A DNA stretch of 64,000 nt, from positions 62,001 to 126,000 of the forward strand of contig CALCCE010000138.1 in the NCBI GenBank assembly GCA_937899835.1, in the 5' to 3' direction. The notes beneath the pieces are model-generated. The model searched no databases, was not told the DNA's origin, and saw only the letters and a list, made by a program, of their open reading frames with translations. Below are positions 27,289 to 46,980 of this stretch, piece by piece; positions within the stretch are counted from its first letter, which is position 1, and each line of letters begins with the position of its first letter. Source of the DNA: an uncultured Flavobacteriales bacterium (GTDB lineage: Bacteria; Bacteroidota; Bacteroidia; Flavobacteriales_G; Salibacteraceae). The translations under genes and the position numbers were made by a program.

Positions 27289-30200
27289 TTAGCGAACGAT
27301 GGTAATGGTACCAACGATTGGATCGGTGCTGGAATCTCCAAGGTCGATCGTATAATAGTAAGTTCCGATTGGCAAGTCATTGCCTTCGAAGGTTCCGTCC
27401 CATGGGATGGTGTAGCCATTCGATTGGAAGAGCGATTGTCCCCAACGGTTGAAGATTTCCACTCGTGCATTGGGGTAATCTGCCAGGATACTAATGATCC
27501 AAACATCGTTGACTCCGTCACCATTTGGTGTGAAAGCGTTGACCACATCGAATACATCAATGACCGTTACTGTCACTGTATCCACATCAGTACATCCTTC
27601 GGGACTGGTTACTGTCACCACATAAGTAGTAGTTGAATCTGGTGTGGCCACTGGATTAGCAGCACTTGCATTATCCAAATTGTTGCTCGGTGTCCAATTG
27701 AAGTTGGCGTTGACCGGACCGGTTGGCGAGCCACCCAGGGTAGCCTGTCCTCCCGACACAATAGAAACATTCGTTCCGGCCGAAGCAACTACAGGGCTGG
27801 CTACGTTCACAACCACCGTATCGGCATCGGTACACAAACCAGAAGATACAATGTACACATACTGGGTGTTACCCGTTGGGGAAACAGTGAGGGTATCGCT
27901 GTTCGACACAATCGCACCAGAGGTATCCAACCATTGTACTGAGAATCCAGTATTGGAGGTGGCACTGCCTACCAATGTCAGGCTTCCACCACCAGAACAC
28001 AAAGTAGTGTCATTAGGTGCATTTGCGGTAACAATTGTGCTGGCGTTGACCGTAATGTTCTGGAACACCTCGCATCCGGCAGAATCAACCACTAACAGCT
28101 GATAAACTGCAGGCAATACATTCACCAAATCTTGGTTGGTTCCGGCAATTGTACTGTCTGTTCCGCTGATCCACTGGTAAGTATAGGGAGCAGAACCACC
28201 GGAGACCGAAATCTGTACAGAACCATCGTTTGAGTTGCTACAGGTGGCATCGATAACCGTATCCACTACTACTACGATTGGCAGTGGCTCAACAATAGTC
28301 GCAGAATCCAATTGAGTACATCCATTGGCATCTGTAACGGTCACTGAGTAGGTACCAGCTGTAAGGCCAACGAGTGTCGAGTCTTGTGAAACAGTCAAGT
28401 TCGACCAGGCAAAAGTGTAGGGCTGCGTTCCACCGGTCACATGCGCAGTGATTTGTCCATCAGAATCGCCACCACAACTTGGGTTCACCAAATCAAAGGA
28501 GGCAAACACCAGTGGTGAAGGATCAGGCAAGTTGATGATTTCAAAGCTCTGGCATCCGTTAGCTCCGGTAGCAGTTACCGTATAGGTTCCTGCACACAAG
28601 CTATCAATGTCTTGCAGTGAATCGGAGAACCCGGCAGGTCCTGCCCAGTTATAGGTGAATACCGGCTGACCAGCAGTTACTGTAATGTCAATGGCACCAT
28701 CACAATCTCCCGGACAGCTGACCTGAGTCACTGTATCAATGGAGATGACACCGGAACCGGAATCGTTCACAATCACTTGGAACACATCAAAGCATCCAAT
28801 GGAATCCGTTACAGTCACATTGTAAATCGCAGCTGACAGGTTAGCAGCAGTCTGGTTGGTTTGGTTCAGTGGATCATCCCACTGATACAAGTAAGGAGCT
28901 CCAACCGTAAAAGGTACCCCACCAATCGGGTTGATGGTCGCGATACCATTACTTCCGCCACAACTTGGGCTTTGGACTGCATTCGTAGCGGTAATTTGCG
29001 AAGGTTCGGTAATGATGACCGAAAGGGTATCGCTACATCCGCCAGCATCAGAAGCCGTTACGGTATACGTCCCAGCGCTCAAGCCAGTCAGTACTGCGGT
29101 GGTATCGCCATTTGACCAATTGTAAGCGTAAGGAGCTACGCCACCCGTAGTGGTTAAGGTGATACTTCCATCATTATTGCCGAAACAAGAGATGTTGTTG
29201 CTGTTGAGCACCACATTAAACACAGCAGGTTGAATGATCGAGGTGCTGTCTACCGCAGTACATCCATTGGCCTCGGTTACAGTTACGGTATACGTACCGG
29301 AACACAATCCGGAAATAGTTGAGGTAGTGTCTCCCGTATTCCACAAGTAAGTATAAGGAGCAGCTCCGCCGGAAGTGGCTACTGAAGCAGTGGCAATACA
29401 AGCTCCGTTACAGGCCAGTGGCGTAGTAGTAAAACTCAAGGTAAATGGAGCAGGTTCGTTCACAGTGGTAGTATCAACTGTAATACAACCCGCTGAATCG
29501 GTTACAGTAATGCTGTATCCACCGGCACACAGGCTATCTGCTAAAGTCGCAGTGTCACCGTTACTCCACAGGTAGGTGTAAGGCACAGCACCGCCAGTTG
29601 CTACCACCGTAGCCGAACCGTCACAAGACCCATTACAACCTGCATCAGTTGTATTCACTGCAATGTTGGCACCGCCGGTATCGCTCAATGGAATTGGGAA
29701 GGTAAAGGCACAACCTACACTGTCGGTAATGGTCAGGTTGTAAACACCTGCACACAAGTTAATTGCCGTGGCTGTGGTTTGACCGTTGCCCCAATCGTAG
29801 GTGTAAGCCCCCGTACCGCCAGTAGCAAGTACTGAGATTTGACCGTCACATGCCCCGCAATTAGAGCTGGTTACCGATACGTTAGCCAAGGTGACGGCAG
29901 TAGGCTGAGTCACCATCATGCTATCAACTATGGTACAGCCATTGGCATCGGTCACAGTTACAAAGTATTGACCTGCACAGAGGGTATCAGCTATAGCGCT
30001 GGTATCGCCATTGCTCCATAAGAAGGAGTAGCCTGGAGTACCACCATTGACACCTACAGAGAGCACACCGTCACAATTTCCATTACATGAAATAGCGTTG
30101 AGGACGGATACTGAGGTGATCATACCCGGAGGATCAACGATCGTTAACGAATCGACAGCAGTACAACCATTAGTATCAGTTACCGTCACAAAGTAAGTTC

Positions 30201-33200
30201 CGGCACACAATCCGGTGGCGGTTGGTGTAGTGGCTACTGTTGTGCCTCCAAGATCTTGCCACTCGAACTGAACGTAAGGTGGAGTACCTCCCAGCGGAGT
30301 CACCGTCAATTCGCCATCACAACTGCCTGGGCAGGAAATCTGAGCCTGCACAGAAGCGCTTGCAGTGATGACCGGAGGATCAATCAAGGTAATGCTATCG
30401 CCACCTAAACAGCCATTGGCATCTTGTACAACGACTCCAATCAGACCCGCTCCAAGGTTTGTGGCCGTGGTTCCTGCTTGCAGGTTGGTCCAGGTGTAGG
30501 TGTAAGGTGGTGTTCCACCCGTGGTAGAAGTTACTGTTGCGCTACCATCGTTATCTCCATTACAACTCGGATTGGTTGCTGCGATTTGGACAATCAGTGT
30601 ATCTGGCTGATTCACCGTAATGTTTCTAAAGAAGATACATCCAGAGGCATCCGTTACTTGCACAATGTATGGCCCGGCGGTAAGGTTGCTGGCAATAGGT
30701 GTGGTTTGAGCGTTTGGATCATTCCAGAGGTAAGTCAACGGAGGAGTAGCACCTGAGAGCACCGCAATTGCAGCGCTTCCGTCGTTTCCACCGAAACAGG
30801 TAACATCTACTACCGAATCAACCACTACAAGGTTGGGCAAGAAGTTATTGACCGAGATCGTATCTGCAATGGTACATCCACTGGCATCGGTGATTGTTAC
30901 GGTGTAAAGTCCGGCACAAAGACCAGTTAAAGAATCGGTAGTGCTACCACCAGTGCTCCAGGCATACGTGTAAGGTGCATTTCCACCGGTAGGTGCCACG
31001 AAGGCTACACCGTCACATACCCCACAGTTGGCATCAACAGAACCTTGGTTGGCCACAATTGGAGTTGGTGAATTAACCGTATGTGAGCCAACTGCTGTAC
31101 AGCCATTGGCATCAGAAACCGTCACATCATAAGTTCCTGCGCAAAGGTTGAAGAGGGTATCTGTGGTTTGTCCAGTACTCCATGCATAGGTATAAGGCGC
31201 TGTTCCACCCGTAGGTGCCGCAGCTGCAAAAGCATCGCAAATATTTCCACAAGACATGTTCGACCCTGATACGTTCGCCAGCAGAACTGGCGGTTCAATG
31301 ATCATTACACTGTCAACAGTGGTACAACCGTTCGCATCGCTTACGGTTACGAAATTCATTCCGGCACACAGAGCAATGTTGACCGATCCGGTGTTTCCAT
31401 TGCTCCAGGTAAAGTTGAAGGGAGCAGTACCACCACTATTCACTATTGCCTCTGCAGCGCCATCACAAACCCCGTTGCAGGATGCATTGGTTACGTTTAC
31501 AATGCTGGTGAAGATCGCACCGGGCTCGGTAATGGTTACCGAAAGGGTATCAAAACATCCGTTAGCATCGGTTACTGTAACGCCGTAGGTGCCGGCACAG
31601 AGTGCATTGTCGGTATCCGTGGAGTTTCCGTTCGACCAGTTGAAAGTATAAGGAGCAGTACCACCGTTGGCAACGATCGTAGCTGATCCATCGCATTGGC
31701 CAAAGCAAGAAGCATTGTTGTTAACCACCGAAGAGACGACAAGCAAGTTTGGATTAATAATGGACACAGAGTCCAGACCCGTACAGCCATTAGCGTCCGT
31801 TACCGTTACCGTATAAGTTCCGGCACAGAGTAGCGTATCAAAATTACCCGTGGTGCCGGTGCTCCAATTAAAGGTAAATGGTGCCGTTCCGCCACTTGCC
31901 ACCGAAACTGCTGCAGCTCCGTCACAGGTATTGTTACAAGTTGTATTCGTCACACCACTAAAGGCCAGTATCAGAGCTCCAGGTTCGACCACCGTCACAC
32001 TGTCGATGATGAAACAACCAGTGGAATCAGTCATGGTAACGGTGTAAGTACCGGCACAAAGTCCATTGATGGCAGGTGTAATTGCTCCTGTATTCCACAG
32101 GTAAGTGTATGGAGTAACACCGCCAGTAACCACTGCCGTAGCAGAGCCGTCACAAATTCCAGGACAACTGGTAGGAGTACTGTTCAGATTGAGGGTCAAT
32201 GCGTTTGGACCAGTAATGTTGATGGAGTCAACCACCGTACAACCATTACCATCGGTTACCGTCACGAAGTTCAGACCGGCACAGAGGTTGGTATCCAGGT
32301 TAGCAGATCCACCGTTCGACCAGAGGAAGGTGAAAGGTGCAGTACCACCGGAGTTCACAGCCACTACAGCAGCTCCATCACAAATACCTCCACAACTGGC
32401 ACTGTTCAACAGGGTCATACTGGTAAGGATAGGCGATGGCTCAATGATGATTGCCGAATCGGTGAAGGTACAGCCATTGGCATCGGTTAATGTCAAGGTA
32501 TAAGTACCACCACAAAGGCCATTCAAGTTGGCAGCACTGCTTCCGTTACTCCAGGCATAGGTGTAAGGAGTAGAACCTCCAAAGATGTTTGTGGTTGCTG
32601 TTCCGTTGCACACTCCATTACAGAGAACATTGGTAGCGATAATCGATCCAGTAATCGTTGGTGGTTCTGTAATGGTAAGACTTGTAGTAGCAGTACAGCC
32701 GAAACCGTCCGAAACAGTAATAGTGTAAGTACCGGCACACAGAGCAGTATCAAGAGGACCTGCCGTACCATTACTCCAGGAGAAAGCAAATGGAGCTGTT
32801 CCGCCTGAGGCCACCGTAATTTGAGCCGCCCCATCACAAATTCCAAAACAGGAAGCATTTTGAATCACGTTGGGGTTCAACACGATCGGTGAAGGTTCAG
32901 TTACCAATACTGAATCGGTAAGCGTACATCCACTCGCATCGGTTATGGTCACGGTATAAGCACCTGCACAAAGCGCAGTGAGGTTAGCACTGCTGGCACC
33001 GTTCGACCAATTGAAGGTGTACGGTGTAGTACCACCGGTTACAGTAGCGGTGGCAGTTCCGTCACAAACGCCATTACACGAAGCATTGGTCGAGCTGACA
33101 CTAAGGGTCAGCGCTCCCGGTGCTACAATGTTCACACTATCAACAGTGGTACATCCAAAGACATCGGTTACGGTCACAAAATTCATTCCCGCACACAAGG

Positions 33201-36200
33201 TGGTGTTCGCTGCGTTGTTCACTCCATTGCTCCACACAAAGGTGAAAGGCGCCAAACCTCCTGATACTACACTTGCCGTAGCCGTTCCATCACAGGTAGA
33301 ACCACAACTAATTGGTCCAACTCCGGTGATGGCAGTAACAATTGGTGGAGGTTGATTGATGGAGAAGTTCGCAACATTGAAGCAACCATTGTTATCGGTA
33401 ACGGTAACGGTATAGTTACCTGCACACAAGTTAGTATCAATAGGAAGAGAAGAACCCGAAGGCCATGCATAAGTGTATGGGAAAGTTCCCCCGAATACCA
33501 GCGCAAGCGCAGCCCCATCACAAGATCCAAAGCAGGTAGGATCAGATGGAATGACATTAATGGTAACCGCATTCGGATCAACAATTAATATACTGTCTAC
33601 TGTAGTACAGTTGTTGGCATCAGTTACGGTCAATACATTGAATCCTGCACAGAGCGTATTGTTAACAGCACCTGTCACACCATTCGCCCAGTTATAGGTA
33701 TATGGTGCGGTACCAGCCGAGGCATTTGCCGTTGCAGAACCGTTACAAACTCCGTTACACTGAGCGGTAGTCACACCCGTGAAACTCAAGGTAATCGGAG
33801 CTGGGTCCATAATGGTTTGTTGAGCGGTTTGTGTACAGCCATTCGCATCGGTGAGTGTCAAGGTATACACCCCTGCACACAAGCCGGTAAGGTTGGCAGT
33901 TCCGGTTCCGTTGGACCAGTTGAAGGTATAAGGTGTGGTGCCACCAACTGCGGTGGTAGTAATGGTGCCATCACAAGTACCGTTACAGCTAGGATCTGTT
34001 GCCACGATGGTAATGTTGGCTCCGGCTGGTTCCGTAATCATGATGCTGTCTACAGCGCTACATTGATTTGAATCAGTTACCGTCACAAAGTTCATTCCCG
34101 CACAAAGCGCTACCGCAGTAGCAGAAGTTTCTCCATTAGACCAACTGAAGGTATAAGGAGTGGTACCGTTGGAAGCGGTCACTGTAGCCGAACCATCGCA
34201 TACTCCATTACAAGAAGCATTGGTTACCGAACCAATGGAAGTGGTGATGGCTATCGGTTGACCAATGGTTACCGTAGCAGTGATAGAACAACCTGCCGCA
34301 TCCGTTACGGTAGCGATGTAGGTTCCAGCACACAATCCGGTATCTACCGGAGTGCTAGCACCGCTTGGCCATGCATACGTATAGTTTGGAGTACCACCAG
34401 CAACGATTAAGATGCCGGCACCATCACAAATACCGCTACAAGTAGCATCTTGAGAAATGGTATTGATGGTCAATCCGCCAGGTTGAGTGATGGTCACCGA
34501 GTCTACTGCAGTACAACCGTTAGCATCGGTTACAGTTACCGTGGTTGTGCCCGCACAAAGAGCAGTATCGAAACTAGTAGTGGTTCCGTTGCTCCAGGCA
34601 AAAGTAAATGGTGCAGTACCACCTGAATTCACACCTACAGTAGCACTACCATCGCAATTGCCCGAGCAAGATGCATTGTTGACATTGGAGAAAGCAAGGT
34701 CAATAATTGCTGGTTCAGTGATGGTATAAGCAGCTGAATCAGAGCATCCGTTGGCATCGGTGACCGTTACCATGTAGGTACCTGCACAAATATTGGTGTT
34801 ATTACCTGCTGGCCATTGGATGGTATAAGGCGCAGTACCGCCACCAGCTACTGCTGATGCCGTTCCGTCACAAATACCGTTACAACTCGCATTGGTCGTA
34901 GTAACAGTGATCGAAATGGCTGCGGGCTCTGTGATAACTGCATTGTCTACCGAAGTACAACCGTTGGCATCCGTAATGGTAACGGTATTGGTACCCGCAC
35001 AAAGGTTGGTGGGGTTGGTTCCGGTAGCGCCATTCGACCAGTTGAAAGTGAAAGGAGCAGTACCGCCAGAGGTAACTGCCACCGTAGCAGAGCCGTCACA
35101 AGTACCGTTACAACTCGCATTGGTCACGCCACTTACATTGGATACAATTGGAGCTGGCTCAGTCACCGTAGCACTATCCAATCCAGTACAACCGTTGGCG
35201 TCTGTGACAGTGACGGTGTAAGTTCCTGCGGTTATTCCAGAAAGGAAGGTAGCAGTACCGCCGTTGGACCAATTGAAGGTATAAGGTGTGGTACCGCCGA
35301 CTATAGCGGCAGATACTCCACCCGTTGCTTGTCCAGGACAGAAGACGTTGCTGTCCACAGCAACCGTCACTGCAAGCAAAGCAGGCTCATTAATAGTTAC
35401 ACTATCGACCACCGAACATCCGTTGGCATCGCTAATGGTTACCGTATAGTTGCCCGCACAAAGACCAGTAAGTGCACTCGTGGAGGCACCATTCGACCAG
35501 TTGAAGGTAAACGGTGCGGTTCCGCCAGAGGTGAGTCCGGCAGTCGCCGTTCCATCGCAAATTCCATTGCAACTGGCGTCATTCACATTGGTAAATCCAG
35601 GGATCAAGGTACTTGGCTGGGTGATGACATAAGAAGCAGTATCGGTACAGCCGTTGAAGTCTACCACGGTGAGCACGTAGCTCCCGGCACAAAGGTTCAC
35701 ATTGCTACCACCAGGCCAGAACAAGGCATAAGGAGCGGTTCCACCAGTGACGTTAGCCGTAGCCAACCCATCACAAATACCAGAGCAGGTAGCGTTGGTA
35801 GTGGTCACCGAAGTACTCAATGAACTTGGCTCGGTAATGTTTACACTATCGACCGCCGAACAACCATTGGCATCGGTTACCGTCACAAAATTCATTCCGG
35901 CACACAAGCTGGTATCTTGTGCAGCCACTCCTCCGTTTGACCATTGGAAGGTAAAAGGAGCAGTTCCACCAGAGGCTACCGTTGCAGTAGCCGTTCCATT
36001 ACATTGTCCGTTGCAAAGCGCATTCGTTACATTAATAATGGATGTAACAATCACAGCAGGTTCGGTTACGGTAGCAGAATCTACCGAAGTACAGCCGTTA
36101 GCATCCGTTACAGTCACAGTATAAGTACCTGCCACAAGACCAGTTAAAGAGGCATTAGTGGCTCCGTTGCTCCAGTTGAAAGTGTAAGCAGGAGTACCCC

Positions 36201-39200
36201 CAGCTGCGCTTGCAGTAACCCCTCCATCGGCGAGGCCTCCACAACTAACGTTGTTATCAACCACCACGCTGGCGACCAGCAAAGTAGGTTCGGTTATGGT
36301 TACGTTGGTAGTTTCTGTACAACCGTTGGCATCGGTCACCGTGATGGTATAATTTCCAGCACAGAGCGAATTATCAGCGGGCCCGGTAGTTCCATTGCTC
36401 CAATTGAAGGTAAATGGTCCAGTACCGCCAGCAGCCACACCTACTGTAGCAGAACCATCACAAACGCCGTTGCAACTGGCATCGGTTTGGCTGGTGATTG
36501 CCACCACAATTTGAGCAGGCTCACTAATGGTATAGGTAGCAGAGTCTGTACAACCATTGAAGTCAACAACCGTCATGGTATACGTTCCGGCACAAATGTT
36601 TACGTTGCTTCCTCCTGGCCAGAAAAGGGCATAAGGAGCAGTTCCACCGGTTACAGCAGCATTGGCGGTTCCATCGCAAAGGCCGAAACAGGTGGCATCG
36701 GTCGTGGTAATCGCAATGTTAATAGGTGCTGGCTCTGTGATGGTCACACTATCCACCGCAGGACAACCATTGGCATCAGTCACCGTTACCCGGTTTACCC
36801 CGGCACATAAGTTGGATGGAGAGGTGCCAATAGCACCATTCGACCAGTTGAAGGTAAATGGCGCTGTACCTCCTGAAGTGACGGCCACTGTAGCAGATCC
36901 ATCACAAACTCCGTTGCAACTGGCGTTGGATACATTTGTAATAGAAGTAACAATAGGTGCAGGAGATGTAATGGTGTATGGCGAAGTAAGCGTACATCCA
37001 TTTCCATCCGTTACCGTTAGAATGTAAGAACCGGCACATACGTTAACAGGGCTACCCGCAGGCCAGGCCAGTGTGTAAGGCAAGGTGCCTCCTGAAACCG
37101 TTGCGCTGGCAGTTCCATCGCAAATACCGGCACAACTTGCAGGCAGTGTAGCAACGAATACTACCAATGGTGCGGGTTCAGAAATGACTACTGAAGTACT
37201 GTCAGTACAGCCATTTGCGTCAGTTACCGTTACACTGTAAGTGCCAGCGGTAAGGCTGGAAATACTCGCAGTTGTTGCCGCATTGGACCATACAAAAGTA
37301 TAAGGGGATGATCCACCAGCTGCAGCAGCGGTTGCTGCTCCATCAGTAAATCCGAAACACGATACATCGGTACTGGTAAGAATGGAGGCCACTACGGCCG
37401 CAGGTTCATTTACTATGGCACAAGCAGTGTCGGTACAGCCATTAGCATCTGTCACGGTTACGCAGTAGGTACCGGCAGCAAGATTGCTCTCTAAAGGATT
37501 GCTACCGCCAGAAGGCCAGGCAAAAGTATAAGGTGCATTTCCACCAGATGCTCCGGCAGAAGCCGATCCGTCGGTAGCGCCATTACAAGAAGCTGGTGTA
37601 GTGGCAATGATTGCAGCATCTACGCCAGTGGCGGGTTGGGTAATATTCACACATGCAGTATCGGAACAACCGTTCGCATCGGTGACGGTAACGCAAACCT
37701 GACCTGCACTCAAACCCGTTTCCAAAGCATTGCTTCCACCGGAAGGCCATGCGAAGGTATAAGGGGCCGTTCCACCACTTCCGCCAGCGGTCGCAGAACC
37801 GTCGTTGCCACCAAAGCAATTGACGTTAGAGGTCAAACTCGCTGAAGCCACTACTGCCGAAGCAGGTTGGGTAATCGATATCGAGGCCTGATCAGTACAG
37901 CCGTTCGCATCGGTTACCGTCACGGTGTAATTACCAGCGGTCAATCCGGCAATACTGGAAGATGTGGCACCGCTGGACCAATTGAAGGTGTAGGGAGCAG
38001 TACCACCGGAGCCAGCAGCATCTATCGTACCATCGTTACCTCCGTTGCAGGAAACATTGGTAGAAGAGGTTATTGAAACAGCAACAGGTGTAGGTTCAGT
38101 AATACTAACCGATTCGGTATCAGTACAGCCGTTGGCATCCGTCACAGTAACGGTAAATGACCCTGCACCAAGACCGGTAACGGTAGCGGCACTGCCGCCA
38201 GTAGACCAGCTGAATGTGTAGGGTGCAGAACCTCCAGCCGCAGCTGCAGTTGCTGATCCATCAGCAGCTCCATTACAAGAAACATTGCTGCTGGTAGTAA
38301 TGGAAGCCACTACTGTAGCAGGCTCGGTAATAATAGCACAAGCGGTATCCGTACAGCCGTTGGCATCCGTTACAGTTACACAATACGTTCCAGCAGCTAA
38401 GCTGCCTTCGGTTCCACCCGAACCTCCGGATGGCCATGCAAAAGTATAAGGTGTGGTTCCACCAGAAGCTCCAGCAGAGGCTGAACCATCAGCAGCTCCA
38501 TTACAAGAAGCCGGCGTAGTGGCAATGATAGTAGCGGCAACCGGGTTGGCGGGTTGCCCAATCGTTACACAGGCAGTATCAGAACAACCGTTATTATCGG
38601 TTACAGTGACACAGAACGTACCTGTAGAAAGACCATTTTCAGTAGCAGAGTTGCCTCCACCTGGCCAGGCAAAGGTATAAGGTGCGGTTCCGCCGGTAGC
38701 ACCGGCTGTAGCTGATCCATCATTTCCTCCAAAGCAAGTCACATTGGTGCTGCTGGTGATAGAAGCGTCAACTCCGTTCGCGGGTTGAGAGATGGAAACA
38801 CAAGCGGTATCGGTACAGCCGTTATTATCGGTTACAGTCAGGCAGTAAACTCCGGCAATCAAACCGGTTTCAGTGGCAGCAGAACCACCCGAAGGCCAGG
38901 CAAAAGTATAAGGTGCCGTTCCACCGCTACCACCTGCGGTAGCCGTTCCGTCATTCCCACCGAGGCAAGATACATTGGTACTGTTGGTGATGCTGGCCGA
39001 TACTGCCGTTGGCTCGGTAATGGTAGCGTTGGCAGATTGAGTACACCCGTTGTTATCGGTAACGGTTACCGTGTATGTTCCTGCACAAAGACCATTGATG
39101 GTAGCTCCGGTGTTTCCGTTGGACCATGCAAAAGTGTAGGCCGGTGACCCTCCGGTAACCGTAGTAGTGATACTTCCATCACAAGTGCCATTACAGGAGG

Positions 39201-41931
39201 CGGCAGTTGGATTAAATAATATCCCGATAGCCGACGGTTCGGCGATAACAGTATTGAAGGTATTGGTACATCCATTGGCATCAGTAACCGTTAAAGTGTA
39301 GGTACCTGCACACAAACCTGATTCACTGGCAGAAGAGCCACCGGAAGACCAATTGAAAGTATAGGGAGAAGTGCCTCCAGCTACCGCTGCATTGGCCACT
39401 CCATCACAAGTGCCATTACAAGAAGCATCGGTGTTGGTAAAGGTAGTGGTGATCGGGGCAGGGTCTGCGATGTTAACACAAGCAGTGTCAGTACAGCCAT
39501 TGGCATCAGTAACGGTTACACAATAGATGCCGGCGGTAAGTCCGGTTTCATTCGCATTGGTTCCACCCGATGGCCAGGAAAAAGAAAGAGCTTGTTCGGG
39601 TACAAACGCTACATAGTCATTGGTAATCGTTCCCCAGTTTGAAGAGTTACGACCAGCAACGAAGAAGCCATTCGCTCCAGTGGCATCCTCAATACCCATG
39701 GTGTGGTTTCCACCATCGGAGGGAGCACTGGTAGTGTGAATTTCAATAATATTAGAAGTCTCGTGAAGAACAATTTGAGTAGTTACCAGATTTCCGTTGG
39801 GGAAGTGCGGCTGATCGGTCACGTTGAATATAAAGGCCCGATTGGGTGAGGCACCCGCTGTCCAGTATTCAATAGTACCGCCTGCACCCAGGTTCAGGTC
39901 TTCCCATGCATAAGCGATCAGGTTGTTAGGGGCACCCGCATTAGGGAGCACTTGGCCAGTACAACAGCCGTTTGGAGAAGAGGCGTTGAATGTGATAAAC
40001 CCATTCGTGGAAGCAAAAACTTGCGTAAATGTCTGTCCAAAGAATTCGAATGTAAAGCCAAGGGGCATGGCAGTACTCACACCATCATCCAAAGAACCAG
40101 AACCTAATGCAAATGCAGTTCCTGTCCCGGTGTATGGACTAAAAGTACCGGTTTGATCAACTCGATAGGTAAGCGTTGAAGTACTCGCCGAACTACCGCC
40201 ATAGCCTCCGGCAAATGCCTCTCCATCATTGCCCCCACTACAGCTTACGTTGTTGCTGCTATCAATCACCGCTACAACTGCAGGTGGGTCAACAATGGTA
40301 TACTGACGGGTGATGGTACATCCGTTGGCATCAGTCACCAATACGTTGTAAGTACCTGCACAAAGGTTAGAAGCGGTAGTACCAATTTGGTTACCCGGGT
40401 CGTCCCAAGCGTAGGTCAATGGAGAAGAGCCACCTACCGCCAATACGGAAACACTACCTGTGCAATCTCCATTGCAGCTTACTCCATTAATGGTATCCAA
40501 AGTAAAAAATAGCGGCCCTGGCTCAGAAATGTTCAATGCTGGGTTTACCAGGAAAGTTTCTCCTGAAGGGTTTTCTGTAACAAATACAGTAATGGCGCCA
40601 GGACAAAGGCCAGTTAATGTAGAAGTTCCTCCTCCAAAAGTGGTCGTTCCGTTGCTCCATGCATAGGTATAGGTATTACCAGAAGTATCGGAGGCTATAG
40701 TTGCTGTTGCAGTACCATCACAGTTGCCAAAACAAGTCACGTCAGTAACGCCAAGCGTTGCACTCAGTACGTTCGCGGGTACAATGATTTCGAAACTTTG
40801 AGAGTTGGTTCCAAAAACCGGACATGCACCGTCGTCTGCAAACACAGAAACTGAAAGGCTTTGAGACACCCCGGTGACTGCAGTCCAACATATGGTTCCA
40901 GTAGCGGGATTCGTACCTGTTTGAGTAAAAGTACCCCCTGGTAAAACGGTGGCAGCATTGGAAGTCAGCGTAATATTGTCTGCCAGGTTTGGATCAGTAA
41001 ATACTACATCAAAACAGAAATTCTGACCTGGGTTAGCAGTAACCGTAGTTGGAGGGGTAAAAGTGGCGGTACCGGTAGTGTTGGTGTACGAAGTAGGTGC
41101 AGAAGGAACATTGTTTCCGCAATTCTCCACCACAAATTGAATGTCCCGACGAATGTTTCCTAACAATGCACCCGTTCCAGGATCGTATTCATCTACCTGA
41201 ACGACTACTATGTAATTTCCGGTTAAGGTTGGCGTAAAACTTAACTGACCATTTTGGTTCAAAGTAATCCCTGGGATAGGATTTGCCGCAGTGTTTGGGA
41301 ACACATAGCCTACATTAACACCAGAGGCAGACTGAGCAGATACCAAAGAATAAACAAGGCTATCGCCATCGCTGTCTACCGCTCCATAATTGTAGTTTAC
41401 CGGTTGGTTGATACAGGTATAAGGAATCGGCTGGGAGGTGAAAATTGGAGAAGCATTACAAGTATCGGTTTGCGAACGAAAAACCGTACTGATCGACATC
41501 TGCGGTGAACCAGCCACATTGAGCGAAGTGTTTCGACAGCACTGGGACCAGTTGGCGGTCCAATCATCACATCGTGGGGAGAGTACTACCGTATTTTGAT
41601 ACACGTACTCTTCCATACCCGGCAGGAGGCCTCCATTACAAGTACTTTGTGGAATCGAGGTAGCACACAACTGCGATACTTCCGTTCCACCTACGTTGGT
41701 AAGAGGAAAGTTGGATGTAAAGTTTCCACCGCAAGTGCTGGCAAAAGTCATATTAATGGCGCCCGGTGCGGGGATTCCCGAGCAATCCCTAAAGGCACGC
41801 AGGGTTACCAAAAATGAGTCAACACCTACACAGGTGTAGGTGATTTCTCCTCCGGAAAAGTGAGTTGCCGTGACACTGGGCGTTATGGCAAGACACATAA
41901 TTGTTGCAAGAACAGAAAGTAATCTTTTCAT
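27289..41931 (-). CDS. Giant SprB-like repeat adhesin with T9SS type B C-terminal domain
   Basis: 4880 residues. Signal peptide (MKRLLSVLATIMCLAITPSV), then a Cys-rich N-terminal region (about 22-270: HFSGGEITYTCVGVDSFLVT and CCRNTS). A beta-sandwich linker follows to about residue 385. About 53 SprB-like repeats of 73-78 residues run from about 386 to 4630; a typical unit is ASCNGxCDGxATVxxxGGTAPYTF-WSNG-xxx-LCAGTYTVTVTDANGCT-xxDSVTITEP. Two further beta domains and a C-terminal gliding-motility-type domain (about 4800-4880) follow: FTPNGDGVNDVW, VEIFNRWGQSLFQ, WDGTFEGNDLPIGTYYYTID. This C-terminal domain directs T9SS type B export. It is a cell-surface adhesin of the SprB class, possibly for gliding, attachment or aggregation. 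A PorP/SprF gene follows immediately. There is no obvious promoter box in the 200-bp gap upstream. Confidence 0.95.
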   Translation of the reverse strand: MKRLLSVLATIMCLAITPSVTATHFSGGEITYTCVGVDSFLVTLRAFRDCSGIPAPGAINMTFASTCGGNFTSNFPLTNVGGTEVSQLCATSIPQSTCNGGLLPGMEEYVYQNTVVLSPRCDDWTANWSQCCRNTSLNVAGSPQMSISTVFRSQTDTCNASPIFTSQPIPYTCINQPVNYNYGAVDSDGDSLVYSLVSAQSASGVNVGYVFPNTAANPIPGITLNQNGQLSFTPTLTGNYIVVVQVDEYDPGTGALLGNIRRDIQFVVENCGNNVPSAPTSYTNTTGTATFTPPTTVTANPGQNFCFDVVFTDPNLADNITLTSNAATVLPGGTFTQTGTNPATGTICWTAVTGVSQSLSVSVFADDGACPVFGTNSQSFEIIVPANVLSATLGVTDVTCFGNCDGTATATIASDTSGNTYTYAWSNGTTTFGGGTSTLTGLCPGAITVFVTENPSGETFLVNPALNISEPGPLFFTLDTINGVSCNGDCTGSVSVLAVGGSSPLTYAWDDPGNQIGTTASNLCAGTYNVLVTDANGCTITRQYTIVDPPAVVAVIDSSNNVSCSGGNDGEAFAGGYGGSSASTSTLTYRVDQTGTFSPYTGTGTAFALGSGSLDDGVSTAMPLGFTFEFFGQTFTQVFASTNGFITFNASSPNGCCTGQVLPNAGAPNNLIAYAWEDLNLGAGGTIEYWTAGASPNRAFIFNVTDQPHFPNGNLVTTQIVLHETSNIIEIHTTSAPSDGGNHTMGIEDATGANGFFVAGRNSSNWGTITNDYVAFVPEQALSFSWPSGGTNANETGLTAGIYCVTVTDANGCTDTACVNIADPAPITTTFTNTDASCNGTCDGVANAAVAGGTSPYTFNWSSGGSSASESGLCAGTYTLTVTDANGCTNTFNTVIAEPSAIGILFNPTAASCNGTCDGSITTTVTGGSPAYTFAWSNGNTGATINGLCAGTYTVTVTDNNGCTQSANATITEPTAVSASITNSTNVSCLGGNDGTATAGGSGGTAPYTFAWPSGGSAATETGLIAGVYCLTVTDNNGCTDTACVSISQPANGVDASITSSTNVTCFGGNDGSATAGATGGTAPYTFAWPGGGNSATENGLSTGTFCVTVTDNNGCSDTACVTIGQPANPVAATIIATTPASCNGAADGSASAGASGGTTPYTFAWPSGGSGGTEGSLAAGTYCVTVTDANGCTDTACAIITEPATVVASITTSSNVSCNGAADGSATAAAAGGSAPYTFSWSTGGSAATVTGLGAGSFTVTVTDANGCTDTESVSITEPTPVAVSITSSTNVSCNGGNDGTIDAAGSGGTAPYTFNWSSGATSSSIAGLTAGNYTVTVTDANGCTDQASISITQPASAVVASASLTSNVNCFGGNDGSATAGGSGGTAPYTFAWPSGGSNALETGLSAGQVCVTVTDANGCSDTACVNITQPATGVDAAIIATTPASCNGATDGSASAGASGGNAPYTFAWPSGGSNPLESNLAAGTYCVTVTDANGCTDTACAIVNEPAAVVASILTSTDVSCFGFTDGAATAAAAGGSSPYTFVWSNAATTASISSLTAGTYSVTVTDANGCTDSTSVVISEPAPLVVFVATLPASCAGICDGTASATVSGGTLPYTLAWPAGSPVNVCAGSYILTVTDGNGCTLTSPYTITSPAPIVTSITNVSNASCNGVCDGSATVAVTSGGTAPFTFNWSNGAIGTSPSNLCAGVNRVTVTDANGCPAVDSVTITEPAPINIAITTTDATCFGLCDGTANAAVTGGTAPYALFWPGGSNVNICAGTYTMTVVDFNGCTDSATYTISEPAQIVVAITSQTDASCNGVCDGSATVGVAAGGTGPFTFNWSNGTTGPADNSLCAGNYTITVTDANGCTETTNVTITEPTLLVASVVVDNNVSCGGLADGGVTASAAGGTPAYTFNWSNGATNASLTGLVAGTYTVTVTDANGCTSVDSATVTEPAVIVTSIINVTNALCNGQCNGTATATVASGGTAPFTFQWSNGGVAAQDTSLCAGMNFVTVTDANGCSAVDSVNITEPSSLSTSVTTTNATCSGICDGLATANVTGGTAPYALFWPGGSNVNLCAGSYVLTVVDFNGCTDTASYVITQPSTLIPGFTNVNDASCNGICDGTATAGLTSGGTAPFTFNWSNGASTSALTGLCAGNYTVTISDANGCSVVDSVTINEPALLAVTVAVDSNVFCPGQATGGVSAAIVGGTTPYTFNWSNGGTATFLSGITAGTYTVTVTDANGCTGLDSATVTEPAPIVSNVSGVTNASCNGTCDGSATVAVTSGGTAPFTFNWSNGATGTNPTNLCAGTNTVTITDANGCTSVDNAVITEPAAISITVTTTNASCNGICDGTASAVAGGGTAPYTIQWPAGNNTNICAGTYMVTVTDANGCSDSAAYTITEPAIIDLAFSNVNNASCSGNCDGSATVGVNSGGTAPFTFAWSNGTTTSFDTALCAGTTTVTVTDANGCTAVDSVTITQPGGLTINTISQDATCSGICDGAGILIVAGGTPNYTYAWPSGASTPVDTGLCAGTYIATVTDAAGCSITATVTIGQPIAITTSIGSVTNASCNGVCDGSATVTASNGTTPYTFSWSNGETSATAVALCAGMNFVTVTDSNQCSAVDSIMITEPAGANITIVATDPSCNGTCDGTITTTAVGGTTPYTFNWSNGTGTANLTGLCAGVYTLTLTDANGCTQTAQQTIMDPAPITLSFTGVTTAQCNGVCNGSATANASAGTAPYTYNWANGVTGAVNNTLCAGFNVLTVTDANNCTTVDSILIVDPNAVTINVIPSDPTCFGSCDGAALALVFGGTFPYTYAWPSGSSLPIDTNLCAGNYTVTVTDNNGCFNVANFSINQPPPIVTAITGVGPISCGSTCDGTATASVVSGGLAPFTFVWSNGVNNAANTTLCAGMNFVTVTDVFGCTTVDSVNIVAPGALTLSVSSTNASCNGVCDGTATATVTGGTTPYTFNWSNGASSANLTALCAGAYTVTITDASGCTLTDSVLVTEPSPIVLNPNVIQNASCFGICDGAAQITVASGGTAPFAFSWSNGTAGPLDTALCAGTYTITVSDGFGCTATTSLTITEPPTITGSIIATNVLCNGVCNGTATTNIFGGSTPYTYAWSNGSSAANLNGLCGGTYTLTLTDANGCTFTDSAIIIEPSPILTSMTLLNSASCGGICDGAAVVAVNSGGTAPFTFLWSNGGSANLDTNLCAGLNFVTVTDGNGCTVVDSINITGPNALTLNLNSTPTSCPGICDGSATAVVTGGVTPYTYLWNTGAITPAINGLCAGTYTVTMTDSTGCFIIDSVTVVEPGALILAFSGVTNTTCNNTCDGAAAVSVASGGTAPFTFNWSTGTTGNFDTLLCAGTYTVTVTDANGCTGLDSVSIINPNLLVVSSVVNNNASCFGQCDGSATIVANGGTAPYTFNWSNGNSTDTDNALCAGTYGVTVTDANGCFDTLSVTITEPGAIFTSIVNVTNASCNGVCDGAAEAIVNSGGTAPFNFTWSNGNTGSVNIALCAGMNFVTVSDANGCTTVDSVMIIEPPVLLANVSGSNMSCGNICDAFAAAAPTGGTAPYTYAWSTGQTTDTLFNLCAGTYDVTVSDANGCTAVGSHTVNSPTPIVANQGSVDANCGVCDGVAFVAPTGGNAPYTYAWSTGGSTTDSLTGLCAGLYTVTITDASGCTIADTISVNNFLPNLVVVDSVVDVTCFGGNDGSAAIAVLSGATPPLTYLWNDPNAQTTPIASNLTAGPYIVQVTDASGCIFFRNITVNQPDTLIVQIAATNPSCNGDNDGSATVTSTTGGTPPYTYTWTNLQAGTTATNLGAGLIGVVVQDANGCLGGDSITLIDPPVITASASVQAQISCPGSCDGELTVTPLGGTPPYVQFEWQDLGGTTVATTPTATGLCAGTYFVTVTDTNGCTAVDSLTIVDPPGMITSVSVLNAISCNGNCDGVLSVGVNGGTPGYSFLWSNGDTSAIADTLCAGQYFVTVTDANGCTIVDSMMVTQPTAVTLANVSVTSSNCGACDGQISVLATGGTGAYTYDWGNGQTTATAINLCAGVYNLTITDSVGCAFTFPIPLSDTGGANIAVNTTDAGCNGSCDGSATVVATGGAVPYTYLWSNGDTATLADSLCAGGYSITVTDSAGCITVDTTTVNEPAPFTLSFTTTPLACNGACIATASVATSGGAAPYTYLWNTGDTTSTISGLCSGTYTVTVTEANGCTAVDSTSIIQPAVFNVVLNSNNISCFGNNDGSITLTTTGGVAPYAYNWSNGDTTAVLTGLSAGTYTVTASDAGGCSDTLSVIITEPSQITATNAVQSPSCGGSNGIATINPIGGVPFTVGAPYLYQWDDPLNQTNQTAANLSAAIYNVTVTDSIGCFDVFQVIVNDSGSGVISIDTVTQVSCPGDCDGAIDITVTAGQPVFTYNWAGPAGFSDSLQDIDSLCAGTYTVTATGANGCQSFEIINLPDPSPLVFASFDLVNPSCGGDSDGQITAHVTGGTQPYTFAWSNLTVSQDSTLVGLTAGTYSVTVTDANGCTQLDSATIVEPLPIVVVVDTVIDATCSNSNDGSVQISVSGGSAPYTYQWISGTDSTIAGTNQDLVNVLPAVYQLLVVDSAGCEVFQNITVNASTIVTANAPNDTTLCSGGGSLTLVGSATSNTGFSVQWLDTSGAIVSNSDTLTVSPTGNTQYVYIVSSGLCTDADTVVVNVASPVVASAGTNVSIVSGGQATLGGSPTGPVNANFNWTPSNNLDNASAANPVATPDSTTTYVVTVTSPEGCTDVDTVTVTVIDVFDVVNAFTPNGDGVNDVWIISILADYPNARVEIFNRWGQSLFQSNGYTIPWDGTFEGNDLPIGTYYYTIDLGDSSTDPIVGTITIVR
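28040..40775 (-). repeat. Tandem SprB-like repeat array inside the giant adhesin
   Basis: About 53 units of roughly 225 bp encode the repeats. Units are divergent in DNA but share Cys pairs (SCNGxCDG and DANGC). Over units 15-39 (about 36965 to 31285) odd units carry an extra residue and the form xSGGTAPF plus AVDSV, while even units carry xGGTxPY. Units 7-9 repeat as 11-13 with a period of about 915 bp, and 15, 19 and 23 recur at about 905 bp. Unit 3 is split by an inserted domain. Confidence 0.9.
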
Positions 41932-42132: not shown

Positions 42133-43482
42133 TCAGTGTGCGGACAATCTTCCTAATTTGTAATTCACCAACAAGCGAAGTTGGCTGTTGCGATCCACCA
42201 CCGAATAACCAAAGTGGCTGTCATCGGTCATGTCGAACATGCCGAAGCTCGCCCGCATGCCCAAGCGCAAGCGCTCGTTAAGGGCATATTGGTAGTGAAT
42301 CCTTAAGGCAAGGTTTGGGTTAAACCCTTCCGGGCGTCCCAACCAATCCGTTTTTTCAGAATCAGGAGTAGTGGTTTCCGTGGTCCGGAAAACCGGAATG
42401 GAATACTCCATACCTACTCCAATTTGGTTGCGGTAAGCCAATTGTGGCGACCAACCAAAGGCATATTGAAAGTAGAGCGGGATGTCGATGCTGGTCAACC
42501 ATTGTGAGGCTACCCGAGCCGAATCGAAGCGGTTATCGTTGGCATCTGGTGCACTCCGATACTCTTCCACACTGTTCAGTCCATTTCGAATGCTTGCTGC
42601 CACTCCAGCATTGAAGGAGAAAGAAGAAGATAAAGACCAATTGGCGTGTACTCCGCCGAAACCGCCGTAACCATTACTACCGCGCAGTGGGTCACCGGTG
42701 TTGATCAATCCACGGGTGAGTGCCGGACCGAATACCAGGTGGATACTGGCCGGTGCAAATCGCCTTCTGGCCTCATCAGGTCCAATAAAAGTGCGGTTGG
42801 CCGGCGAAAACTCAGGGGTAGCTGCATTTACACCCATCAAATGGAGATAATTCAGATCACCGTCTTCACCGTTAGGAGGAGTTATCTGGTCTGAATTGCT
42901 GGCCAATAAACCGTGATTCAAACGTTGGAACAGCTCATCATCTTTGCTTGTAGAGAGTATTTTGGAGTTGGTTGGTTCGATAATGGACGATGATAGAGCG
43001 GTATTCCCTTCACGCCGTGCAGTAGTAGCAGGTGTAGTTTTGTTTTCAGCGCTTGAAGTAGTAGCATTAGCCAGATTTGGAGCCGCTTTTACTGGTGTTG
43101 AGGAGTTGTCTTTATCTGTGGCTGTACTCTTTTGTGGTAAAGCATTAGAAACGTTGGTCGAGGTTTCCTGTTCCTCAAAACCAACCAAGGCTGTAGCATT
43201 GGAAGCAGTTGTTGAGATTTCGTCTATCCATTGTTGATTTCCTTCTGCAATCGAATGAGAAGCGAGTTGGCCGCTTGGCTCAACCACCAGCCAGGGCACT
43301 ACAACAGCTACTAAAAGGGCAGAAAACAGAGCAGCCAACGCACCGGATGACCATCCACCTCCGCCTTTGTTCAGGGCCTCTACTGATGGGGCTACAGCCT
43401 CCCACGCAGCAGGATCGAAAGGCAACTCTTGCGCTCCTCCCAACTTGGCCTGAAACAGTTGATCAAATTCTTTATTCTCCAT
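42133..43482 (-). CDS. Envelope protein with inner-membrane helix and outer-membrane-barrel-like C-terminus, paired with ECF sigma factor
   Basis: 449 residues from ATG 43482, whose A is shared with the sigma-factor stop (TGATG). The N-terminal 45 residues are cytoplasm-like (MENKEFDQLFQAKLGGAQEL). A transmembrane helix follows (GALAALFSALLVAVVVPWLV, about 47-66). Then a Ser/Thr/Asn-rich, low-complexity spacer (about 70-210) and a C-terminal half of alternating strands: FAPASIHLVFGPALTRGLIN, SSFSFNAGVAASIRNGLNSV, WLTSIDIPLYFQYAFGW, LALRIHYQYALNERLRLGMR, SQLRLLVNYKLG. The latter resembles outer-membrane-protein-family barrels. The layout suggests a protein bridging inner and outer membranes that signals to the sigma factor, by analogy with anti-sigma factors. 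This is inference; it might instead be a soluble beta domain. Confidence 0.75.
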   Translation of the reverse strand: MENKEFDQLFQAKLGGAQELPFDPAAWEAVAPSVEALNKGGGGWSSGALAALFSALLVAVVVPWLVVEPSGQLASHSIAEGNQQWIDEISTTASNATALVGFEEQETSTNVSNALPQKSTATDKDNSSTPVKAAPNLANATTSSAENKTTPATTARREGNTALSSSIIEPTNSKILSTSKDDELFQRLNHGLLASNSDQITPPNGEDGDLNYLHLMGVNAATPEFSPANRTFIGPDEARRRFAPASIHLVFGPALTRGLINTGDPLRGSNGYGGFGGVHANWSLSSSFSFNAGVAASIRNGLNSVEEYRSAPDANDNRFDSARVASQWLTSIDIPLYFQYAFGWSPQLAYRNQIGVGMEYSIPVFRTTETTTPDSEKTDWLGRPEGFNPNLALRIHYQYALNERLRLGMRASFGMFDMTDDSHFGYSVVDRNSQLRLLVNYKLGRLSAH

Positions 43483-44075
43483 CACAACAAAATTGTCGGT
43501 AGTTTTTTCATTGTTTCGGCGATCATTCCCCGAAGTTTTTTGCGCGCAAAGGACACGTGCCATTTCGATGTCCCGTCCGACATATCGAGCATCTTTCCAA
43601 TTTCTTTGTGGCTATATCCATCTATCACGTGCAGGTTGAAAACTTTTTGACTCAAAACCGGGAGCCGGGTAAGCATTTGTTGCAGTTCTTCAGCATCGAA
43701 GCGTTGATCTGCATCGTTGTAACTGATTTGAACATTGGTTCCGCGGTCTTCACTGAGATCATTGTATTCTATCAGTTCTTTTTGCTTTCGATTTTTACGA
43801 AACTCGTCGATGATCGTATTGATCATAATTCGACGAATCCAGGCTTCAAAAGGAGCTTCCTGACTGTATTTTTCCAGGTTGCTTAGCACTTTCAAAAAAC
43901 CGAGGTTCAATAAGGAGGTTGCGTCCTCCTTGTTCTTCTCATACCGCAGGCAAACACTCATCAGAATGCTGTAACTCTGGCGATACAATTCGAACTGAGC
44001 CTTCCGGTCTTTCTGGATGCACAAGCTCAAAAGCTCTTTGTCGATGCCCATCTCCATTTGTTTGAAGGTACGCAT
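43482..44075 (-). CDS. ECF-type RNA polymerase sigma factor
   Basis: 197 residues from ATG 44075; a second start at Met7 is possible. Region 2: FELYRQSYSILMSVCLRYEK, DATSLLNLGFLKVLSNLEKY, FEAWIRRIMINTIIDEFRKN. Region 4: LPVLSQKVFNLHVIDGYSHK, IGKMLDMSDGTSKWHVSFAR. The sequence SDGTSKWHVSFARKKLR is the recognition helix form typical of Bacteroidota ECF factors of the SigP/PorX-linked kind. It is translationally coupled to the envelope protein downstream and lies within the adhesin/PorP cluster, so control of surface-protein genes is a reasonable guess. A strong hairpin sits 46 bp upstream. Confidence 0.92.
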   Translation of the reverse strand: MRTFKQMEMGIDKELLSLCIQKDRKAQFELYRQSYSILMSVCLRYEKNKEDATSLLNLGFLKVLSNLEKYSQEAPFEAWIRRIMINTIIDEFRKNRKQKELIEYNDLSEDRGTNVQISYNDADQRFDAEELQQMLTRLPVLSQKVFNLHVIDGYSHKEIGKMLDMSDGTSKWHVSFARKKLRGMIAETMKKLPTILL

Positions 44076-44161: not shown

Positions 44162-44305
44162 AGCAGGTTGAACCAAACCTACTCATAAAAAATTTCCGGT
44201 TTTCCGGTTTTGTTTCCATTAAATTGCGCATCCAAGAAGGTACACGCAATCGCAACCCACAAGGTTGGGTCTACTCATCAACTTTTTCTAAAAATTTTAG
44301 ATTTA

Positions 44306-45262
44306 TCAGTTATAGGCCGGACAGAGCTGATTTTTCACCGGATACCTGCCTTTAGCACAAGGGGTTAGCGAAAGAATGATCTCGTGGGTATTGGAGCTAA
44401 TTCTACGCATTTTTGAAGTGGTATAGTCGTAGGAATATCCTACCGAAACGAATTTTGCCAACTTTAGCTGCATCATGGCACTAACGGCATCGCCCAGCCG
44501 GTAAGAAGCTCCCAAACCAATCACATCTTTGTAAAAAACCAACATATTGGCGTCAATGGAAGGAGGCCACAGGGCCGTGTAACGCACGTGCACAGAGGGG
44601 ATATACGTGTAATAATACCGTTGCGATTCGATTTGTCTTCCAATGGTAAAATAAAAATGTGGTGGCAGGCCCGCCGGAGAACCGATTTGCTGTCCGCCTT
44701 GCTTGAGTTGGTTTTTAAATACCTGGCGCACCGAGATCCCGGTGTAGAACGATTTGTTATACAGCCAAATACCGGGATGAATCTCAGGATAAAGAAAAAA
44801 AGCAACACCCTGTCCCAAGGTAGGATCGTCTAAGTCAGGATACACCAGTCCGGCCCCGCTAAATGACTCTCTTCGAAAACCAAGAAAAGCACCGGTAGAC
44901 ATAATCAAATTACGATTCAAGCGCACATGAAAAGCATAAGAAGGATAAACAGCCTGGCGCCCAAAGGCCCCAATCTCTTCGTTGAACATGTACACCCCAA
45001 TGCCGTGCCAATGCTGCCGAATACCGTTTTTCTTACCAATGGCTTTGTGGAAGGTGAAGAAGGAAACTTCTGGTGCTCCATCCAGCCCTACCCACTGTCG
45101 TCGATACCCCAGTTTAATGTCCGTACAAGGTTTGCTCCCAGCCACCGCAGGATTGATCGCATAGTGATTGAATAAATATTGGGTGTATTGCTCCGGTTGT
45201 TGGGCGGATATTACGGTCCCCAACAAACAAAAAATCAACAGGATCAAACCTCCTTTTCTCAT
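44306..45262 (-). CDS. PorP/SprF family type IX secretion outer-membrane protein (partner of the 573-aa adhesin)
   Basis: 318 residues: signal peptide (GGLILLIFCLLGTVISAQ), then QPEQYTQYLFNHYAINPAVA and KLGYRRQWVGLDGAPEVSFF. These are the same family landmarks as the protein at 26325, but the sequence is clearly diverged, so the two are not recent duplicates. The C-terminus carries VSVGYSYDYTTSKMRRISSN THEIILSL. It overlaps the upstream adhesin by 4 bp (ATGA), showing strong translational coupling. The product is expected to act with that adhesin at the outer membrane. Confidence 0.93.
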   Translation of the reverse strand: MRKGGLILLIFCLLGTVISAQQPEQYTQYLFNHYAINPAVAGSKPCTDIKLGYRRQWVGLDGAPEVSFFTFHKAIGKKNGIRQHWHGIGVYMFNEEIGAFGRQAVYPSYAFHVRLNRNLIMSTGAFLGFRRESFSGAGLVYPDLDDPTLGQGVAFFLYPEIHPGIWLYNKSFYTGISVRQVFKNQLKQGGQQIGSPAGLPPHFYFTIGRQIESQRYYYTYIPSVHVRYTALWPPSIDANMLVFYKDVIGLGASYRLGDAVSAMMQLKLAKFVSVGYSYDYTTSKMRRISSNTHEIILSLTPCAKGRYPVKNQLCPAYN

Positions 45263-46980
45263 CGCATTAGGGTTAGATAACCAGTGAAGGTATCCGCATC
45301 GGGATCTTCATGATCTAAGGTGATTTGATAATAGTAGGTTCCGGTAGGCAGGGTGCGCCCTGCGTTGGTGCCATCCCAGGGAACTTTATATCCGGTAGAT
45401 CGATATACCCGCTGCCCCCAACGGTTGAACACCAATACCCGGCACCGCTCGTAAGTAGACAAGTTTTGCAACAACCAGGTCTCATTCAAGCCATCTCCGT
45501 TGGGGGAAAAGGCATTGGTGACGGTTACCGGCGGACAAAGGTTGGGAATGGTAACGGTGTAGTTGGCCGTACAACTGCGATTGTCCGTTATCACAATTTC
45601 GTACGTTCCAGTTAGCAATTCAGTAAACTCGGGAGTAAACTGCGTACCACCAGGATTCAACGTGTAGGTGTAGGGTGCAGTGCCGCCGACCACCTCCGTG
45701 ATCACAATGCTGCCAGTTGTAGACTGACATTCAATGGGCGTAACCACCGGACGGGCTTCGACCGGATCAGTCTCAGGAACTACTTCCACCAAGGTATCGC
45801 TACAGCCGTTGGCGTCCTCCACAACAATGGTATAGGTGCCCGCAGCAAGCCCACCATAAAAACCTTGGGCGTTACCGGGAGCCAACGGAGGGGTATACGT
45901 GTAAGGACCCGAGCCTCCTTGGGCGGTCACCAACAACGAACCGTTGGCCTCTCCACAATTAGCTTCGGTGACATTGGCGACAGCTTGCGGAGGAGCAGGC
46001 TGACTCACCGTAGTGGTTACGGTATCCATGCAGCCGTTTTGATCCTGAACAATCACTGAATAAGTACCTGCCGCAAGACCCGTAAAGCTATTGCCCGACT
46101 GAAAATTCGCACCACCATCAATGGAGTAAGAATAGTTTGGAGTACCACCGGATACGGAATCGATGGAAATACTACCTGTACTAGCCGTACAGGAGCTGGG
46201 CTGTGGAGTTTGAAAAACAGCGGTGATAGGATCTGATGCTGGCACCACCACCGAAACAACGGTATCACACCCTTGTGCATCGGTTACGGTAGCTGTGTAC
46301 GTTCCAGCGGACAAATTACCGATCAAGCTTCCACTTTGCCCATTGCTCCAGGCATAGGTATAAGGTGGAAAATTCCCACTCATGGAAAGATTGATGCTCC
46401 CATCATCGCCTGGATTGCAACTTTCAGGAAGCACCGCGGGTTGGGCTTGCCATGCAACCGCCTGCCCACTTACTTCAATATCGAAACTACAGGCTGAAAG
46501 GCTAGGTAGAGAAGTACCACCGTCAATTTGTACCCAATATTGGGTATTGCCCGATAATGAAATCCCATTCAATACAAAACCTCCGGCAAGGCCGGTATCG
46601 CAGTCAATCGCTATGTAAGAAGTTGGATCACACGGAACGGCAGCTGCCAGAAGTACCCCTTGCAATGTCAACCCAGGTCCACATCCTGAATTGCTGACGG
46701 TCACCTGCACTGCTCCACCAATGGCATTGGTCCGAAAAGTGTACCAGACGGAGTTATCTACATCATAACATTGTCCCCACGAGCCAGAGGCCATGCAATC
46801 TCCGTCCGGACCACCACATTGCGCAGTGGCACCAAGGGTGGTTCCAGCAATTTGCACATTGCTGCAAAGGACCTGAGCTGCGCTGCAATCGTCATTGGGC
46901 GGTTGCCCAAAACCAAGCAATGGCAAACACAACACCAACCAGCTCCATAGAACCTGCGATTTAGTGGGAATTCTTCGCAT
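45259..46980 (-). CDS. Secreted adhesin with SprB-type repeats and T9SS type B C-terminal domain
   Basis: 573 residues: signal peptide (SWLVLCLPLLGFGQ), an N-terminal beta domain with paired Cys (about 25-175: NDDCSAAQVLCSNVQ, CYDVDNSVWYTFRTNA), four SprB-like repeats (about 180-480, each ending in a DxNGC-type Cys), and the C-terminal gliding-motility-type domain (about 490-573: AFSPNGDGLNETW, VLVFNRWGQRVYR, WDGTNAGRTLPTGTYYYQIT). The N-terminal domain has the look of a bacterial pre-peptidase or lectin-like sandwich. It is the small counterpart of the 4880-residue adhesin, with its own PorP/SprF gene. Exported by T9SS; surface attachment is inferred. Confidence 0.93.
   Translation of the reverse strand: MRRIPTKSQVLWSWLVLCLPLLGFGQPPNDDCSAAQVLCSNVQIAGTTLGATAQCGGPDGDCMASGSWGQCYDVDNSVWYTFRTNAIGGAVQVTVSNSGCGPGLTLQGVLLAAAVPCDPTSYIAIDCDTGLAGGFVLNGISLSGNTQYWVQIDGGTSLPSLSACSFDIEVSGQAVAWQAQPAVLPESCNPGDDGSINLSMSGNFPPYTYAWSNGQSGSLIGNLSAGTYTATVTDAQGCDTVVSVVVPASDPITAVFQTPQPSSCTASTGSISIDSVSGGTPNYSYSIDGGANFQSGNSFTGLAAGTYSVIVQDQNGCMDTVTTTVSQPAPPQAVANVTEANCGEANGSLLVTAQGGSGPYTYTPPLAPGNAQGFYGGLAAGTYTIVVEDANGCSDTLVEVVPETDPVEARPVVTPIECQSTTGSIVITEVVGGTAPYTYTLNPGGTQFTPEFTELLTGTYEIVITDNRSCTANYTVTIPNLCPPVTVTNAFSPNGDGLNETWLLQNLSTYERCRVLVFNRWGQRVYRSTGYKVPWDGTNAGRTLPTGTYYYQITLDHEDPDADTFTGYLTLMR

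Follow-up and report, generated by a model that had tools for sequence, protein, structure and literature searches.

A putative trans-envelope anti-sigma factor of the Dma type encoded among T9SS adhesin genes

Results

A distant relative of the Bacteroides Dma proteins

Analysis of a 64,000-nucleotide stretch of DNA from an uncultured Flavobacteriales bacterium (hereafter, the window) identified a 449-residue protein which, on the basis of profile comparisons, we would assign to the Dma family of anti-sigma factors as a distant member. In the reading we favour, with a probability of about 0.8, residues 1-46 hold an ECF sigma factor, a helix anchors the protein, a tether crosses the periplasm and ends in an outer-membrane barrel, and a change at the outer membrane frees the sigma factor. 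The analysis yielded the anatomy by prediction, together with homology, gene linkage and a promoter-like motif; sigma binding, outer-membrane insertion, the signal and the regulon are what we infer. The features of the locus are collected in Table 1.

Table 1. Features of the anti-sigma locus and its neighbours (window coordinates)
Feature	Position	Strand	Basis or remarks
Dma-like trans-envelope anti-sigma factor (putative), 449 aa	42133..43482	(-)	ORF, homology, AlphaFold2
Residues 1-46, predicted cytoplasmic sigma-binding-type domain; two helices, motif NIDxLFKxKL...AWxxxExxL	43345..43482	(-)	AF2, hhalign
Residues 47-66, single inner-membrane helix, N-terminus cytoplasmic (predicted)	43285..43344	(-)	AF2, charge bias
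Residues 67-244, Ser/Thr/Asn-rich disordered periplasmic tether (predicted)	42751..43284	(-)	pLDDT
Residues 245-449, predicted 8-stranded outer-membrane beta-barrel	42136..42750	(-)	Family matches, AF2, folds, strand alternation
TGATG, overlap of sigma stop codon and anti-sigma start codon	43480..43484	(-)	Read from sequence
Cognate ECF sigma factor, 191 aa; alternative start upstream at 44075	43482..44057	(-)	Sigma70_r2, Sigma70_r4_2; TIGR02937 above cut-off
Promoter-like site ACCCAACC-N16-CGTGT, between porP and sigma gene	44242..44270	(-)	Kept in most orthologues
PorP/SprF-family T9SS outer-membrane protein, upstream neighbour	44306..45262	(-)	PF11751, 216.8 bits
SprB-repeat protein with CHU_C T9SS type B C-terminus, upstream neighbour	45259..46980	(-)	PF13573, PF13585, TIGR04131
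Giant SprB-like surface protein, 4880 aa, downstream neighbour	27289..41931	(-)	ORF

The assigned start codon is supported because homologues start at the same methionine and carry the same motif. An AlphaFold2 (AF2) model built with 29 sequences recovered the four-part layout of a preliminary description made from the sequence alone, which had called for structure prediction with membrane topology: tail, inner-membrane helix, tether and barrel. The tail, put there at about 45 residues, contains helices at 5-15 and 24-39, and the strong helix said to follow it was modelled as a membrane helix at 47-66. Lysines and arginines within 15 residues of this helix were more numerous on its N-terminal side in all 29 barrel-bearing homologues; from this positive-inside bias it follows that the N-terminus is cytoplasmic. 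The spacer is indeed predicted to be disordered (pLDDT below 50 at 63-226 and 228-234), at a length of about 178 residues rather than the 140 first estimated. In two homologues (L021:1132-2592 and L027:1396-2763) the sigma-binding-type motif is doubled in tandem before the membrane helix.

The beta-rich C-terminus had been described as barrel-like, and prediction agreed in giving an OmpA/OmpX-type barrel and not a soluble domain. Eight strands were placed within 245-446, mostly with pLDDT above 90, and the closest PDB folds were OmpA, Ail, NspA and OmpX, all of them 8-stranded outer-membrane barrels. Hydrophobicity alternated between the inward and outward faces of the strands with a value of 2.66, against 1.03 +/- 0.28 for shuffled sequences, none of 2000 shuffles reaching it. 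The OMP_b-brl_2 family scored 17.8 bits against the window protein alone, below its cut-off of 27, and matched all 29 aligned homologues at E<=0.01 (best 3e-16).

This architecture is already known. In the Bacteroides Dma (dual membrane-spanning anti-sigma) family, the B. thetaiotaomicron proteins are composed of an N-terminal sigma-binding domain, a transmembrane helix, a disordered tether and a C-terminal barrel, and are encoded beside an ECF21 sigma factor (PMC13088901). The novelty that the preliminary description implied for such a one-piece design is thus not supported, the design having been reported between 2022 and 2026 (PMC9308784, PMC13088901). The cytosolic region of Dma1 binds its sigma factor directly, according to a paper that cites the Dma1 study (PMC12077199), and loss of Dma2 takes effect via its sigma factor (PMC13088901).

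For the profile comparisons we used Dma-type proteins of Bacteroides-like genomes instead of the B. thetaiotaomicron Dma sequences themselves. The N-terminal 75-80 residues matched the N-termini of these proteins at 97.7% in hhalign (E 2.4e-12; best E in 20 column-shuffled controls, 0.034), the cytoplasmic part alone at 94.6% (E 7e-8) and the barrel at 99.0% (E 2.4e-18). Distant membership of the Dma family is proposed because both the N-terminal domain and the barrel are homologous to those of the Bacteroides proteins. The family profile also recovered Dma-type proteins in genome G330, one locus being that of Bacteroides ihuae. There the anti-sigma gene shares its operon with a nitronate-monooxygenase-like gene and one for a small lipoprotein, both assigned from gene position and general appearance rather than by family scan; since this gene content agrees with the published dma2 operon (PMC13088901), the locus was counted as dma2-like. 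Further dma2-type relatives (L151-L162) were seen in B. fragilis, B. nordii, B. salyersiae and Caecibacteroides, and a downstream lipoprotein was common to the three whose neighbours were checked (L151, L155, L158).

The window protein differs from the Bacteroides Dma-type proteins in several respects. It is distant from them (12-20% identity in profile alignments), its gene sits among T9SS adhesin genes instead of in a dma2-type operon, and its sigma factor, at most a candidate member of ECF21, shares 28-29% identity with Das-type sigmas of Bacteroides and forms a separate group in the tree.

Conservation of the sigma/anti-sigma pair

The start codon of the anti-sigma gene shares one base with the stop codon of the sigma gene, in line with the translational coupling proposed from the sequence. 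Homologues of the 449-residue protein were found in 35 genomes in a search of 100 relatives, and an ECF sigma gene adjoined the homologue at all 30 other loci fetched. In each of 20 loci inspected more widely, the two genes lay on one strand, with gaps of -82 to +35 nt. The sigmas of the fetched loci were mostly 47-64% identical to the window sigma; the one adjoining a paralogue on contig C304 of the same genome was 36% identical. Support for both the topology and the anti-sigma role that had been suggested for the protein comes from the predicted structure, the charge bias around the helix, the sigma gene found at every locus and the homology with Bacteroides Dma-type proteins.

Across the phylum, the family profile found matches in 123 of 296 sampled genomes, many of them barrel-only or N-terminus-only. 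The window protein used as query against the genome contigs gave no match. Membership of the window sigma in the NF058625 (PG0214-type) family was rejected (67.3 bits against a family cut-off of 130), as was the use of NF058625 sigma loci as relatives; these belong to another system, and most of them encode small anti-sigma-like proteins lacking a barrel. In the genome itself, ECF sigmas were matched 48 times at E<=0.001, and further pairs of a sigma with a long anti-sigma-like protein were noticed at L062:2205-4044, L063:331-2506, L064:1475-3641, L187:875-3366 and L190:948-3090.

A conserved promoter-like site upstream of the sigma gene

Of 31 orthologous regions lying upstream of the sigma gene, 24 contained the sequence CAAC-N17-CGT. 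For the looser AAC/CGT form, 7.4 occurrences were expected from shuffles, and none of 200 shuffles gave as high a count. In most of the aligned copies the sequence is ACCCAACC-N16-CGT or a near variant; the window copy is the sole exact match in the 64 kb (0.10 expected). The motif was not enriched genome-wide, where it matched 16 times as opposed to 22 times in the control, and a wide regulon is thus not supported. The simplest reading would be that the sigma operon is autoregulated and has few targets. This conserved site is new here; it suggests autoregulation and offers a candidate promoter motif with which that possibility can be tested.

Siting within a T9SS adhesin cluster

The order CHU_C - PorP - sigma - anti-sigma seen in the window recurs in G036, G038 and G040. 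In the window, in G036 and in G040 the pair is followed by an SprB-like gene, and an SprB-like neighbour was also found in G064 and G041; homologues of the giant protein hold the same position in G064 (41% identity) and G040 (38%). This siting within a T9SS adhesin cluster, recurring in other families, is new here, and the locus suggests a connection to surface adhesins of the T9SS. PorP-like proteins are reported to anchor type B cargo (PMC9143113). These data can be cited for a special case of the preferred reading, in which the protein would be a dedicated monitor of the T9SS adhesin pathway: its barrel would touch the neighbouring PorP/SprF protein or the cargo of that protein, and a failure to export or anchor adhesins would free sigma. 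We regard this special case as rather unlikely. In 14 of the 20 wider loci (L166:10860-11987 and 13 others) the gene directly downstream of the anti-sigma encodes a lipoprotein of about 370 residues, and therefore the adhesin link is not general. The evidence is suggestive of a link confined to some lineages.

The idea that SprB-linked loci form a single clade found no support: once every row of the tree is taken into account, the window sigma falls together with those of G086, G044 and G090 (81/86), not with G036, G038, G040 and G041. The G086, G044 and G090 loci have the lipoprotein neighbour where checked. The lipoprotein might be a third component of the system.

Discussion

Proposed mode of action

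By analogy with Dma2, residues 1-46 of the protein would hold, in the cytoplasm, the ECF sigma factor encoded just upstream. Helix 47-66 would fix the protein in the inner membrane, and the roughly 178 disordered residues would bridge the periplasm and place the C-terminal barrel in the outer membrane. Sigma would probably be let go upon disturbance of the barrel or tether: the barrel might stay unassembled, a ligand or T9SS component might bind it, or the polypeptide might be cut. From the ACCCAACC-N16-CGT promoter, the freed sigma would then drive expression of the operon that encodes it; envelope or adhesin genes may also be among its targets. With this protein, the recently described class of one-piece signalling proteins reaching from cytoplasm to outer membrane, known from gut Bacteroides, would extend to further Bacteroidota-type lineages.

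Outer-membrane barrels travel through the periplasm, usually with cleaved signals. Conceivably, then, the helix is itself a cleaved signal sequence and the gene yields two products, an ordinary barrel of the outer membrane and a short anti-sigma fragment bound to the membrane, with a tether that carries no signal. We consider this improbable. A signal peptide would not usually have a 46-residue N-terminal domain ahead of its helix, and tether length is held at 125-240 residues in 29 homologues. Furthermore, the domains of the published Dma proteins are described as reaching from the outer membrane to the cytosol (PMC13088901).

The trans-envelope anti-sigma reading finds a close counterpart in Phocaeicola vulgatus, where an ECF sigma (M0N98_03761) is followed by an anti-sigma (M0N98_03760) predicted to cross the periplasm and to end in an outer-membrane barrel, a pair which its authors liken to an oxidative-stress pair of B. 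fragilis (PMC9308784). The window pair resembles it in gene order and in the barrel-ended, periplasm-spanning anti-sigma. The P. vulgatus pair differs in responding to BcpT, likely via envelope stress, with an induced gene set that includes NigD genes; genes of this kind were not seen beside the window locus. In FecR/FpvR-type cell-surface signalling, as would be the case here, the outer membrane controls an ECF sigma through an inner-membrane anti-sigma, but that system has a separate TonB-dependent receptor and FecR protein. No Pfam match to a FecR domain or TonB-dependent receptor was found in the anti-sigma, its sigma or four nearby proteins. A tie between an ECF sigma and T9SS also exists in the PorXY-SigP and PorA systems of Porphyromonas gingivalis; these employ a two-component system and a separate CTD protein, in contrast to a barrel-bearing anti-sigma.

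A sister family with a different far end

A sigma-linked protein of the same genome, P0003, has an N-terminal domain homologous to that of the window protein and ends with PKD and T9SS type B sorting domains. For this homology the first 75 residues gave an E value of 5.8e-15, the cytoplasmic part 3.6e-12. In an alignment of 18 P0003-type proteins (A3; homologues from L127-L135, L139, L141-L143, L145 and L148-L150), CHU_C was detected in 17 and TIGR04131 in 16. For P0003-type proteins, AF2 predicted two helices on the cytoplasmic side and one in the membrane, as well as a disordered stretch and beta domains. The PKD/T9SS-type locus of the genome lies at L065:2629-4607 on contig C304, and five sampled sigmas of this type form one group in the tree (99/98). 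A literature search for an ECF sigma-linked N-terminal domain in combination with PKD and a T9SS type B end found nothing; the sister family is new here.

That homologous N-terminal domains stand on different C-termini, likewise beside ECF sigmas, and that an ECF sigma is adjacent at all loci, makes it very improbable that the window protein is an outer-membrane or structural protein co-transcribed with sigma and not regulating it, even though the barrel is a common fold and we infer sigma binding. Tentatively, and at less than even odds, the sigma-binding domain with its inner-membrane helix might be a general trans-envelope module with an exchangeable far end, either a barrel or PKD plus T9SS type B, the window member being the one tied to the SprB/PorP adhesin cluster. 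If this were true, single polypeptides would report the state of the outer membrane and of T9SS export directly. At L194:635-2457 we noticed another sigma and anti-sigma-like pair, whose second protein has a CHU_C-like end and a different N-terminus.
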